A stretch of 48,402 nucleotides of DNA. It comes from Candidatus Marsarchaeota G1 archaeon BE_D. GTDB lineage: Archaea > Thermoproteota > Thermoprotei_A > Marsarchaeales > Marsarchaeaceae. Shown one piece after another: positions 1,975 to 36,470 of this stretch (position 1 is the first letter of the stretch; each line of letters begins with the position of its first letter). The notes under the pieces are model-generated. The model saw nothing but the letters and a program-made list of their open reading frames with translations, was not told where the DNA came from and ran no database searches. The stretch is from NCBI GenBank assembly GCA_003019595.1, contig NEXD01000004.1:1-48402 (forward strand). Reading direction: 5' to 3'. The translations under genes were made by a program, and so were the position numbers.

Positions 1975-2913
1975 ATGATCGTTAGCATTAGCAAAGTTTC
2001 AAAACGTTACAATACCCTTTGGGTTTTAAAAGAAGTCTCTGTCAAGTTTTTATCGCAGAATGTTATAGCAGTAATTGGACGAAACGGAGAAGGAAAATCA
2101 ACGCTTGTGAAAATTGTTTCGGGCGTGATTAAAGCCGATAGCGGAAGAGTTTCCATAGACGGCGAACAACCACACGATCCACGCGCAAAAGCGAGAATGG
2201 CCGTGAGCTTCCAAAGCCCTTCCCTTTTTTCTGGTTTTTCTTTAAAAGGAAAACTTGATTTATCACGCCAAGTTTTTTGGTTTAAAACCAAGCGCTTCAG
2301 AAATTAACGAAGTTTTAAGCGACGTGGGTTTGTTGGATTTTTCAAATAAGAAATTTGAGAGCCTTTAAGAAGGCACAAGGAAAAAAGCGGAAATTGCTAA
2401 AATTTTGCTTACGAAAAAAGATGTGTGCGACCTTTTCTTACTTGACGAACCCTTTTCGGGTGTGGACCCCAGCTGGCAGGGACACTATAAAGCGCTTATT
2501 AAAAGCAATCTCGAAAGAAAGTGGCAAGCTTATCGTATACGTGACTCACACACTCACTGAAATCGAAGAGTTGGCAACACGAGTGTGTTTACTTGCTAAT
2601 GGTAGATTTGCACACGAGTGGAGCGGTCAAGAATTTTCTCAAGAAAAACTGCTAACGGTATTTTAATACACGTTCCTCGCGTCTATGAAATCGACGACAA
2701 ACATGTAAGGGCGTTAAATGGTGTGCTCGGCATCTATACTGAATAATGAAAACACGGTGATACAGCTAGAGTCTCAGAGAAACCTGCCTGAGTTGTTTGA
2801 AGCTCTTAAGAGCTTTTCGATAAGACCTTGAAGCTATAGAGATCAAGCGGGCTGGTTTAGAAGAAGCTCTTGTATCGATTTATCGTGAGGTGATGCAAAA
2901 CGAACACGCTTAA
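1975..2913 (+). pseudogene. Broken ABC transporter ATP-binding protein
   Basis: The N-terminus (from ATG 1975) contains Walker A GRNGEGKST and a Q-loop region SFQSPSLFSGFS. The frame is then lost near 2250. The continuation in another frame carries the signature motif and Walker B LLDEPFSGVDP. Within the signature, the expected LSEG reads L-stop-EG, because codon 2366-2368 is TAA. A further frame change near 2475-2490 leads to the D-loop/H-loop part (VYVTHTLTEIEELATRV). Fragments of the C-terminal domain can be followed across more frame changes to TAA 2911-2913. With at least three lesions this ATPase cannot be made by normal decoding. It would have energised the membrane partner encoded immediately downstream. 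Confidence 0.85.
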
Positions 2914-10481: not shown

Positions 10482-11885
10482 TTACTGATTTTTTATTTTC
10501 CAACGTGGGCCAAAAGGAGTATCTTCAACAATCACGCCTAGTTGGGCAAGTTCTAGTCTTATTCTGTCGGCTATTTGGTAATCTTTTCTTTTCCGTGCTT
10601 CTTCTCGAATTTCAAGTAGTAAGGATATGAGCTTTCGAACAAGCTCGTCTTCTGCCATGATTTTTTCAAATCTAATTCCAATAAGTTCGCACATGCGTTC
10701 TAGCGTCTGTCTAAAGCTTTTCAAATCAGACTGAGAGCACTCTCTTTCAGAGACGGCTTTGTTTATGACTCTAACTGCTTCAAAAAGCTTGCTCAAAGCA
10801 TTAGGCAAATCAAGGTCGTTTTCTAAGTCATAAACGAACGCCGAAAAAATTTTGTCAATCTTAAGGGTAAACTCTGTTTGTTTTGTTTGTTGGGTTTTTA
10901 ACGATTCGGTGGCAAGCAAAGAGAACACGTTTTCAATTTTGCTTATGTTACTACCTGCTTGTCTTAAGACGTCCTCGTTAAATTCTAGCGGACTGCGATA
11001 ATGAGCGCCCAAAAGCGCAAGTCTTATCGTGTTAGGATTCCATTCTTTTAACAAGTCTATTAAATTAATAACATTGCCTACGCTTTTTGACATCTTTACA
11101 TTACCCATTGTTACGTACCCTACATGAACCCAAAATCTTGCAAAGGGCTTTCCAGTTAAAGCTTCACTTTGTGCTATTTCGTTTTCGTGGTGAGGAAATA
11201 TAAGATCCTGTCCACCGCCGTGTATGTCCAAAGTTTCCCCAAGATATTTGATAGAAAGAGTGCTACACTCGATGTGCCAGCCCGGTCTTCCCTTGCCCCA
11301 AGGAGAGAGCCAGCCTACTTCACCGGCTGGTACCGCTTTCCAGAGAGCAAAATCTTCTGGGCTACGCTTTTTTTCGCTTGGTTCAACTCTTGCGCCAGCA
11401 ATCAACTCTTCGACTTTTTGGTGTGAAAGCTTTCCATATTCAGGAAAACTGCTTACGTCAAAGTACACATCACCGTCTGAAACATACGCTTTTCCCTTTT
11501 CTATTAATCGCTCTATAAAGTGTAATATATCTTCTATGTGTTCAGTTACTTTGGGGTATAGTTGTGCCCTTTTGACGTTCAGTTTGTCCATCACCTCAAA
11601 ATATTCTACTGTATACTTTTCGGCAACTTCGCTTGGTTGAATGCCAAGCTCTTTTGCTTTTGTGATTATTTTGTCATCAATATCTGTAAAGTTCTGAACG
11701 TGCAAAACGTTAAATCCTTTGAATTCAAGCACACGTTTTAATACATCAAAAACCACAAATGTTCTTGCATGTCCAACATGAGTAGAACCTTGTGGGGTAA
11801 GACCACACACGTACATCTTGACAGTTCTACCATCAAGCGGGACAAACTCCTCAACATTTCTTGTAAGCGTGTTATAGAGCTTCGT
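10482..11885 (-). CDS. cysS: Cysteinyl-tRNA synthetase; natural start position reads ACG
   Basis: Class I CysRS. It has the zinc/HIGH region MYVCGLTPQGSTHVGHARTF, the GWHIECS zinc segment, HHENEIAQSEAL and the KMSKS motif (VKMSKSVGN). The first standard start in frame is ATG 11816, but the frame continues upstream with KLYNTLTRNVEEFVPLDGR, which is the normal CysRS N-terminus. The codon in the position of the usual initiator Met is ACG (11883-11885), three codons after an in-frame TGA at 11892-11894. Either translation starts at ACG, or an ATG was mutated or miscalled, or a truncated enzyme is made from 11816. It attaches cysteine to tRNA-Cys and sits beside the phosphoserine genes, which may feed cysteine synthesis. 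Confidence 0.93.
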   Translation of the reverse strand, partial: TKLYNTLTRNVEEFVPLDGRTVKMYVCGLTPQGSTHVGHARTFVVFDVLKRVLEFKGFNVLHVQNFTDIDDKIITKAKELGIQPSEVAEKYTVEYFEVMDKLNVKRAQLYPKVTEHIEDILHFIERLIEKGKAYVSDGDVYFDVSSFPEYGKLSHQKVEELIAGARVEPSEKKRSPEDFALWKAVPAGEVGWLSPWGKGRPGWHIECSTLSIKYLGETLDIHGGGQDLIFPHHENEIAQSEALTGKPFARFWVHVGYVTMGNVKMSKSVGNVINLIDLLKEWNPNTIRLALLGAHYRSPLEFNEDVLRQAGSNISKIENVFSLLATESLKTQQTKQTEFTLKIDKIFSAFVYDLENDLDLPNALSKLFEAVRVINKAVSERECSQSDLKSFRQTLERMCELIGIRFEKIMAEDELVRKLISLLLEIREEARKRKDYQIADRIRLELAQLGVIVEDTPFGPRWKIKNQ

Positions 11886-33746: not shown

Positions 33747-36224
33747 TTATGATCCCATGAAAAATGACTCGAGTGTTCTTTCTCCCATTACCTCATCGAA
33801 TTCTAAACCCAGTGCGTCAAGAACTTGTTCGAAAGTGGATCGAAGAAGCTCAATGTACTTATTTGTGTCTATATCTTCTGGTTTTGCAAGTTCGACTGGG
33901 AGAACACCGTCCCGCGTTTTTACGTACTGAATAACATCACCCGCAAACACTTTTTTGTGAAGTTTGGCCTCAAGAATTCTTGCTGCCTTTATGTGCTGCG
34001 GGGTGTTCTTTGTGTATTTTTCAGGATTCTTGTTGAGCATTACACTTATTGCCAAATCTTTTGTGTCAAACTTTCTAGTCTTTATTGTAAGATAAGTTGA
34101 CCGAAGTATTTCGCGGATCTTGGCCTTTGCATCTTGAAATTCTTGAGGAGACTTTACGTTGCTAAGTTCAGCGAGAGCCTGTTGGAAAGTGCGCTGAATG
34201 AGCGGTGGGGTGTTTCGCTTTTTGCCAAGTAAACCCTTTATTTCAACGCTTCCATCTGGTTTTACGCCAAAGTAGTTCTTTTTCCTTTCGCTAAAAGCTA
34301 CATATCTGAACACTTTGTCCACATCTAGGTCAACTTTGAGCTCCTGTCTTGCCCAGCCTACCAATTCATCAATTTGGTTTTTTGTTGGATTCAAAACAAA
34401 AAGCGAATCAGTGTCACCATAAAGAACGTTCATGCCAAGCTCCTGTGCTTTGCTGATTGTAGAAGTGATCACGTATCTTGCCATTGCAGCGGTGCTTTCT
34501 GCAACGGGTAAGCAGTAAAATGGAAAAGTATCAGCGCCAAACACACCATAAGAGGCGTTAACGAAAACTTTGAGCGCTCTTTGGGCAACGTCATACCACG
34601 ATCTGTATTCATTTGACAGACTAGCGTCTTTTGATTTCGGTTTGAACCATAACACCCTAAGGTCTCTAAAGAGCCCGACTAGCTCAGAAGCCACACCCTT
34701 TCGCTTTTTGCAAACCCAGTGGTTCGTCTCAGGCACAAGGTTATCCCTACACTCTTCATGCGGACATCTCACTGTTTCATAGCTTAAGTTATACTCTTTA
34801 AGTATAGAAGGATAAAGAGACGCAAAGTCAAGAACCACCACATTAAAGTAAACTCCAGTTTTTGGATTTATCACAATCGCTCCTTTGTACTTTTTGCCTT
34901 TGATCACAGCCGTTGTTGAGGCGATGCTTTTTCTTTGCGTAATGTCTTCAGGGTTGGGAATGAGGTAATTTCTTTCTCTGTGTATCGCATACATCAAGTT
35001 CTTTATCCAAGTTGAAACGCCTGTCCTTACAAGATCGTCCATGCCTGTCCTTGAAGTTCTCATCATGAGAACTATTAACTTCATCACTAGGCTGTCGTTG
35101 AAGCTTGTGAGTTCGTAAGTGATTTGCGCATCTCTAAAACAGTAGTTGGCTAGCTCATAAGGAGTAAGGTTGGTTATGAACTTTCCACCCAAGTCAACCT
35201 TTGATTTACCAAGTAGAACGGATGATATTACATCCAAATTGAACTCTTTGTACTTGCCATCGAAAGCGTAAATTTGAACCGCCTTGTTTTTAAAGAAGTG
35301 GTAAAGGTCCAAGTGAATACCAGTGGAAAGTCTTGCTTCTCTATGTCCCAAAACGATCGGAATTTGTGACTTCGGAATTCCAAGCTTTAAAGCTCTGTGA
35401 TAGAGGTATTTGAAATCGAAGTTATCACCGTTAAAGGTGAGCACAATTGGGTACATAGCAAGAATTTTGAAGCACTGTCTAAGCATTTCAACTTCGTCTG
35501 TAAAGAAATCCACCTGTAGGTCGTTTGGCATGTCCTTAACGTCACCAGGCTCCGAGTCGTTTCTCATCAAAACAAAGGCTTTCTTGAGACCGTCACTACC
35601 GCAAAAAGAAATTGCGATCACTCTTTCGTTTGCTTCCTCTACGTTGGGCAAACGCCCTTCTATTGTTTCTACCTCAATGTCCAGTGCAACGCGTTTAAAG
35701 TTTGGTGCGGGTTCTGAAAGAACGTTGAACCAAGCCAAAATTGTGTCTGTGCTTGTGCCGCTTTCCGAGAAAACTTCCATAACTTGTTTGATATTTTCTG
35801 ATGATTTTGGTGCTACCGGAATCAAATTCCCGTTGCTGATCTTATACACAGCACCTGGTATAAGCGCCCTATCATACATAAAAGAATTTGCGTAACGTAT
35901 TCTTGCTTCCCATGCCGCTGGAAGCTTTTCTCGAAGGCTGTGCGCCCTCCCTCCAATAGTCAAAGGATCCTTTGCGATCACTTTTGTCATTTTTACAAAT
36001 TTGTCATCAAGAGCGTGATACTTATTTACGTATTCAAGCCTTAAAATAGAAGGGTTGCCAGCTATTTCTGGAAGCTGTTTTAATTTGTCTATCGGTATAT
36101 CAGTAAGCAAATAAGGACGATGGTTTGTGTTGTCGTACCATGCAAAAAGCTTCTCACTCTTTTTTTCGTACAAAAGCGCCACCGCTTTTTCGGCATTTCC
36201 ATCGTAAATAACCGTCAAAAGCAC
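33747..36224 (-). CDS. polB1: DNA polymerase, family B, PolB1/Dpo1 type
   Basis: 825 residues from GTG 36224, the first start in this frame. It is the replicative B-family polymerase: Exo I VALDIEVET, Exo II LTFNGDNFDFKYLYHRAL, Exo III YCFRDAQITYEL; motif A VVLDFASLYPSILKEYNLSYETV; motif B ALKVFVNASYGVFGA; motif C YGDTDSLFV. Sequence along the protein closely resembles Sulfolobus Dpo1, including the end STFEQVLDALGLEFDEV. A CPHEEC...CKK insert follows motif A. The frame continues 40 codons upstream without a start codon and encodes SIPVRLETPSELDDS, which fits the Dpo1 N-terminus. The intact N-terminus therefore probably needs a frameshift from the frame at 36343. Confidence 0.96.
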   Translation of the reverse strand: MLLTVIYDGNAEKAVALLYEKKSEKLFAWYDNTNHRPYLLTDIPIDKLKQLPEIAGNPSILRLEYVNKYHALDDKFVKMTKVIAKDPLTIGGRAHSLREKLPAAWEARIRYANSFMYDRALIPGAVYKISNGNLIPVAPKSSENIKQVMEVFSESGTSTDTILAWFNVLSEPAPNFKRVALDIEVETIEGRLPNVEEANERVIAISFCGSDGLKKAFVLMRNDSEPGDVKDMPNDLQVDFFTDEVEMLRQCFKILAMYPIVLTFNGDNFDFKYLYHRALKLGIPKSQIPIVLGHREARLSTGIHLDLYHFFKNKAVQIYAFDGKYKEFNLDVISSVLLGKSKVDLGGKFITNLTPYELANYCFRDAQITYELTSFNDSLVMKLIVLMMRTSRTGMDDLVRTGVSTWIKNLMYAIHRERNYLIPNPEDITQRKSIASTTAVIKGKKYKGAIVINPKTGVYFNVVVLDFASLYPSILKEYNLSYETVRCPHEECRDNLVPETNHWVCKKRKGVASELVGLFRDLRVLWFKPKSKDASLSNEYRSWYDVAQRALKVFVNASYGVFGADTFPFYCLPVAESTAAMARYVITSTISKAQELGMNVLYGDTDSLFVLNPTKNQIDELVGWARQELKVDLDVDKVFRYVAFSERKKNYFGVKPDGSVEIKGLLGKKRNTPPLIQRTFQQALAELSNVKSPQEFQDAKAKIREILRSTYLTIKTRKFDTKDLAISVMLNKNPEKYTKNTPQHIKAARILEAKLHKKVFAGDVIQYVKTRDGVLPVELAKPEDIDTNKYIELLRSTFEQVLDALGLEFDEVMGERTLESFFMGS

Positions 36225-36256
36225 AGAATCGTCTAACTCGCTCGGCGTTTCAAGTC

Positions 36257-36343
36257 TTACAGGTATTGAAACCTCTTCCTCCTCTTCTCCTCTTTTTCCT
36301 CTGTTTCGATTAACTCCTCCTCTATTTCCATTTCCTCTGACAT
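36257..36343 (-). other. Acidic start frame of polB1, out of frame with the polymerase
   Basis: ATG 36343 (or ATG 36331) opens a 28-codon frame (MSEEMEIEEELIETEEKEEK and on) that ends at TAA 36257. A TATA-like GTATATTAT lies at about 36351-36359. The frame is offset by one base from the polymerase frame, and they overlap across a purine-rich stretch with five A residues (36293-36297). Slippage by -1 there, or one missing base in the sequence, would fuse an acidic N-terminal tail to the polymerase. Confidence 0.5.
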
Positions 36344-36470
36344 TCTATAGAATAATATACGCAAACCATAGTTAAACTCTTTGGGTTTGCGAAAGTCCCT
36401 TCAACAGAAACCTGATTTACAAAATATCAAAAGCTTCGTCTGGAGAAGTCAGAAATAAGCTACAGCCGTC

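Follow-up and report, generated by a model that had tools for sequence, protein, structure and literature searches.

A missing base probably explains the frame break at the 5' end of an archaeal PolB1 gene that encodes an acidic N-terminal tail

Acidic extensions at the N-terminus of the replicative polymerase PolB1 have been described by Yan et al. (2017) for the Thermoproteales, which lack PBP1; the extension was reported in all but one of the members examined, and the authors offer the speculation that it takes the place of the acidic tail with which PBP1 limits strand displacement (PMC5418573). For the joining of two overlapping reading frames by a -1 slip, a system described in archaea is the fucA1 gene of S. 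solfataricus, for which an A-AAA-AAT slip sequence, a stem-loop and rare codons are reported, together with a frame break that is kept in two strains (PMC8211752). Frame breaks seen in one genome only were treated by the authors of GeneTack, who expect that singleton frameshifts validated by BLAST are sequencing errors (PMC3711429). The PolB1 gene analysed here combines an acidic tail with a break of frame, and can be compared with all three of these descriptions.

The window, meaning the whole stretch of 48,402 nucleotides under analysis, is an entire contig (C4) of a source genome (G000) of 2.19 Mb in 195 contigs, with a completeness of 91.17% and a contamination of 5.66%. Its minus strand carries the gene for PolB1, a crenarchaeal-type B-family replicative DNA polymerase I (33747..36224), with exonuclease and polymerase domains (PF03104 and PF00136) in a catalytic ORF that is intact and stop-free from GTG 36224 to its stop codon. 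The protein scores 1087.8 bits with the NCBIfam model NF004417, 'DNA-directed DNA polymerase I', whose cut-off is 780, and matches PDB entry 1s5j with an E-value of 3e-241. Two features that the initial annotation had pointed out upstream of GTG 36224 were found exactly as described. The polymerase frame continues upstream without a start codon for 40 codons (36225..36344, minus strand), containing no ATG, GTG or TTG, and is bounded by an in-frame TAG at 36347-36345; the 3' half of this region encodes EEEEEVSIPVRLETPSELDDS, the conserved segment that joins on to the acidic tail, and a similar joint is present in five relatives. In addition, ATG 36343 opens an acidic frame that is offset by one base from the polymerase frame and runs on the same strand for 28 codons to a TAA at 36259-36257 (36257..36343), encoding the peptide MSEEMEIEEELIETEEKEEKRRKRFQYL.

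The family set consists of six genomes including the source genome, so that five relatives could be compared. In all five, the acidic N-terminal tail is unbroken from the start codon into the polymerase. Upstream of ATG 36343, at a distance of 25 nt, lies a family-conserved promoter-like element, TTTAACTA (36369..36376, minus strand), and elements of this type are located 24-26 nt upstream of the start codon (ATG or TTG) in all six genomes, with TTTTAATT as the variant in relative G001. This spacing fits a TATA-like element that serves a leaderless mRNA. The start downstream of the element is in the polymerase frame in the five relatives and out of frame in the window alone. Since both the spacing and the in-frame position of the start are conserved among the relatives, ATG 36343 is the inherited start, and the frame that it opens represents start and acidic tail displaced from the polymerase frame. 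Elements of the TTTAA type were also found 25-34 nt before other starts, with 21 of 85 occurrences at this distance for 84 genes of G000 and 29 of 74 for 95 genes of the related genome G004, a visible and modest enrichment. The upstream out-of-frame part and the downstream in-frame part of the window's gene both match the single continuous N-terminus of the relatives, which indicates that the frame offset exceeds chance.

Within the overlap of the two frames, the run AAAAA at 36293..36297 (minus strand; 0-frame codons GAG GAA AAA GAG) is the sole run of at least four identical bases. The initial annotation had proposed that a slip at this run joins the frames; the run is present, and is one candidate site for the absent base. 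Both frames keep their acidic character throughout the purine run, and therefore the exact site of the base cannot be placed.

The occurrence of similar breaks elsewhere in the assembly was surveyed by frameshift-aware alignment (protein-to-DNA) of relatives' ORFs to 448 kb of G000; as controls, 800 kb from G004 and 348 kb from G003 were treated in the same way. This alignment was written because a plain tblastn survey missed most of the breaks in an ABC-transporter gene of the window. Any query with matches at more than four places was excluded on both sides, and a strict break was defined by 12 codons on each side, at least five of them identical. The GC content was 0.426 in the G000 sample, 0.498 in G004 and 0.512 in G003. 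Any break at all was found in 11 of 145 genes of G000, versus 5 of 158 in G004 and none of 62 in G003 (p 0.016), while strict breaks were found in 8 of 145 genes versus 3 of 158 and 0 of 62 (3/220; p 0.026). After removal of mobile and unnamed genes the strict counts became 5/145, 0/158 and 0/62, respectively (one-sided Fisher p 0.0095). The removed G000 genes were L124, which has a TnpB-like TNB domain, and two genes without a Pfam hit, L051 and L047; control rows were also dropped when the query was a broken, mobile or unnamed fragment of G000 itself, namely two L093 rows (queried with the window's broken fragments), L067 (query L124) and L085 (query L047), all in G004. The excess of breaks in G000 over the controls is modest. 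The polymerase break is not part of the five, as it fails the strict filter: on the side of the tail, 4 of 12 residues are identical. Two further candidates were set aside: the break at L048 is probably spurious, being situated by eye upstream of the likely start, and the one at L053 appeared in tblastn, was absent from the later survey rows and was left uncounted. Several of the G000 breaks are located near contig ends, and these say little about contig interiors; in the window, the polymerase gene lies 12 kb from one end and the broken ABC ATPase gene 2-3 kb from the opposite end.

The five counted genes encode SBDS, a HIT-domain protein, a DHDPS-family protein, the window's ABC ATPase and an LPG-synthase-like protein, whose gene sits at a contig end. 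Among them, SBDS and the ABC ATPase carry the greatest weight. SBDS (L046, G000:C2 near 12037, minus strand) is split across two frames at an A7 run and represents a single locus, no other copy being found. About 1.3 kb away on the same contig, the HIT-domain gene (L046, near 13370, minus strand) shows one frame change near an A6 run. Unlike these two, the DHDPS-family gene (G000:C9 near 6738) is not broken at a homopolymer. The ABC-transporter ATPase gene (2167..2907, plus strand) is interrupted five times by a change of frame and also by an in-frame TAA at about 2368, which looks like low sequence quality near the end of this contig. Nevertheless, 196 of its 245 residues (80%) match the G004 orthologue, and the differences are distributed 32/25/97 over the three codon positions, which suggests a gene that is constrained and not decayed. 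As six true lesions should have erased such constraint, it is the sequence that seems to be at fault, at least in this gene. A 4Fe-4S ferredoxin is present in two copies, of which L119 (G000:C12) is broken near 11195 at the last cluster motif, below the strict filter with 11 codons on one side, while the other copy (G000:C77:575-1042) is open. The intact second copy means that some of the breaks in G000 may be genuine pseudogenes.

The three options offered initially for the polymerase gene were a missing base, programmed frameshifting and decay at the 5' end, of which the first is best supported and the other two are disfavoured; the continuous frame in all five family relatives speaks against programmed frameshifting. 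Programmed -1 ribosomal frameshifting at the AAA codon, or transcriptional slippage, would join tail and polymerase and set the level of the replicase. A Lys-AAA codon preceded by A permits a P-site slip of one tRNA, an SD-like purine-rich sequence lies upstream, and S. solfataricus fucA1 provides one archaeal case (PMC8211752). However, no X-XXY-YYZ slippery heptamer is found among the 0-frame codons of the overlap, which contain only the half-matches GGAAAAA and AAAAGAG, and a stable RNA fold was sought just downstream and not found (z +0.84; the folds of 159 of 200 shuffles are at least as good). The A run is absent from all five family relatives, in which conservation of a slip site or A run was sought and not found, and with five bases it is shorter than the runs of at least eight cited for transcriptional slippage (PMC3711429). 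A programmed event is thus very improbable. Still less can be said for translation truly starting at GTG 36224, with the upstream acidic frame as a separate leader peptide. This GTG is the first in-frame start codon of the polymerase frame, but three relatives have GTC or GTT at the same codon and the other two GGG, although the surrounding stretch is conserved, and the residues above it are conserved in frame (SIPVRLETPSELDDS in the window, SAKLETPANLDES and VSLRLPTPSELSES in relatives). It is an ordinary codon, and initiation there, which the initial annotation had considered, is disfavoured. Least credible of all is incipient decay of the gene from the 5' side. The one break of frame could be read in this way, but the catalytic ORF is intact, third positions account for most of the differences from G004 (220/131/566 at codon positions 1/2/3 over 875 codons), and a search for a PolD-type replicase that could take over detected none in the family.

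A true deletion of one base that arose recently, either in the strain sampled or in a fraction of the population, is unlikely and yet the most probable of the rivals. The polymerase would then be made at a lower level by internal initiation or leaky frame slippage. Purine runs and A runs commonly mutate by gain or loss of one base, and the source genome is dense in A/T runs; those of at least five bases are about 3-8 times denser in the G000 sample than in the G004 and G003 controls, so that true slippage mutations are also expected to be commoner. Furthermore, the loss would be limited to the tail and would spare the catalytic domains. Against such a deletion stands the apparent role of PolB1 as sole replicase: the N-terminal domain of PolD DP2 was detected in none of the six family genomes, while the positive control was detected in three euryarchaea, and PolB1 is therefore probably the only replicase. 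In addition, the next start after the TAA at 36259-36257 is GTG 36224, for which no Shine-Dalgarno sequence is evident by eye, and the same special pleading would be required for several further conserved genes. Extending the idea to all of them, with real breaks in several core genes, including SBDS and what is probably the only replicase, tolerated through widespread transcriptional or translational slippage, yields a reading that is more doubtful by far and ranks just below a programmed frameshift in probability.

The best reading is that the window lacks one base in the PolB1 gene through an error of sequencing or assembly, with a probability of roughly 0.77. It is preferred because the gene is unbroken in the relatives and this assembly has similar breaks in further conserved genes, the polymerase break itself being confined to one assembly. 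A novel regulatory frameshift at this gene is much less likely than a sequence error. The locus would then hold a PolB1 gene of the usual, uninterrupted kind that encodes an acidic N-terminal tail. Its transcription would start from TTTAACTA, and translation would probably begin at ATG 36343, on an mRNA that we infer to be leaderless. The lost base would belong somewhere in the purine run that separates this start from the SIPVRLETP joint, an error of sequencing or assembly being the likeliest cause, and the fault would lie in the sequence and not in the cell. The frame breaks of this assembly should accordingly not be taken as biology without reads; if the break were real, it would represent a rare archaeal recoding in an essential replicase.

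The acidic tail of the window's PolB1 is readable only across the break. N-termini of PolB1 were examined in 29 relatives of the 60 searched. In all eight order relatives, five of the same family (L004-L007 and L012; f1) and three of a sister family (L010, L011 and L014; f2), the 45 residues that immediately precede the core contain 14-17 D/E and 1-4 K/R, and a PIP-like motif was found at none of these eight N-termini. In contrast, of the 21 other genomes examined, 14 show a PIP-like pattern, one of them (G041) as a weak match; the QxTLxDF-type motifs at these N-termini are taken here as PIP-like on the basis of the PIP-box consensus. As a by-product, the analysis therefore describes a Thermoproteales-like acidic PolB1 N-terminus in a separate order, without the PIP-like motif of many relatives. 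By analogy, the tail may act on strand displacement. A PBP1 gene was sought beside the ribokinase genes of two Sulfolobales-like genomes; nothing fitting was found there, and no PBP1 query was obtained.

Compared with the described systems, the window's PolB1 resembles fucA1, as reported for S. solfataricus, in having two overlapping frames related by -1, and differs from that account in having neither heptamer nor fold and in a break that occurs in no relative (PMC8211752). It corresponds more closely to the singletons of GeneTack, as these are characterized by their authors: a single break validated by similarity and present in one genome only, with no substantive difference from their description (PMC3711429). 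At the protein level, PolB1 of the window belongs to the same family as PolB1/Dpo1 of the Sulfolobales (PDB 1s5j) across the whole catalytic region, while the window's family is set apart by an acidic N-terminal tail without a PIP-like motif. With PolB1 of the Thermoproteales, as presented by Yan et al., it shares an acid-rich N-terminal extension ahead of the catalytic core, and unlike the case reported there, the extension is carried here by another order-level group (PMC5418573).
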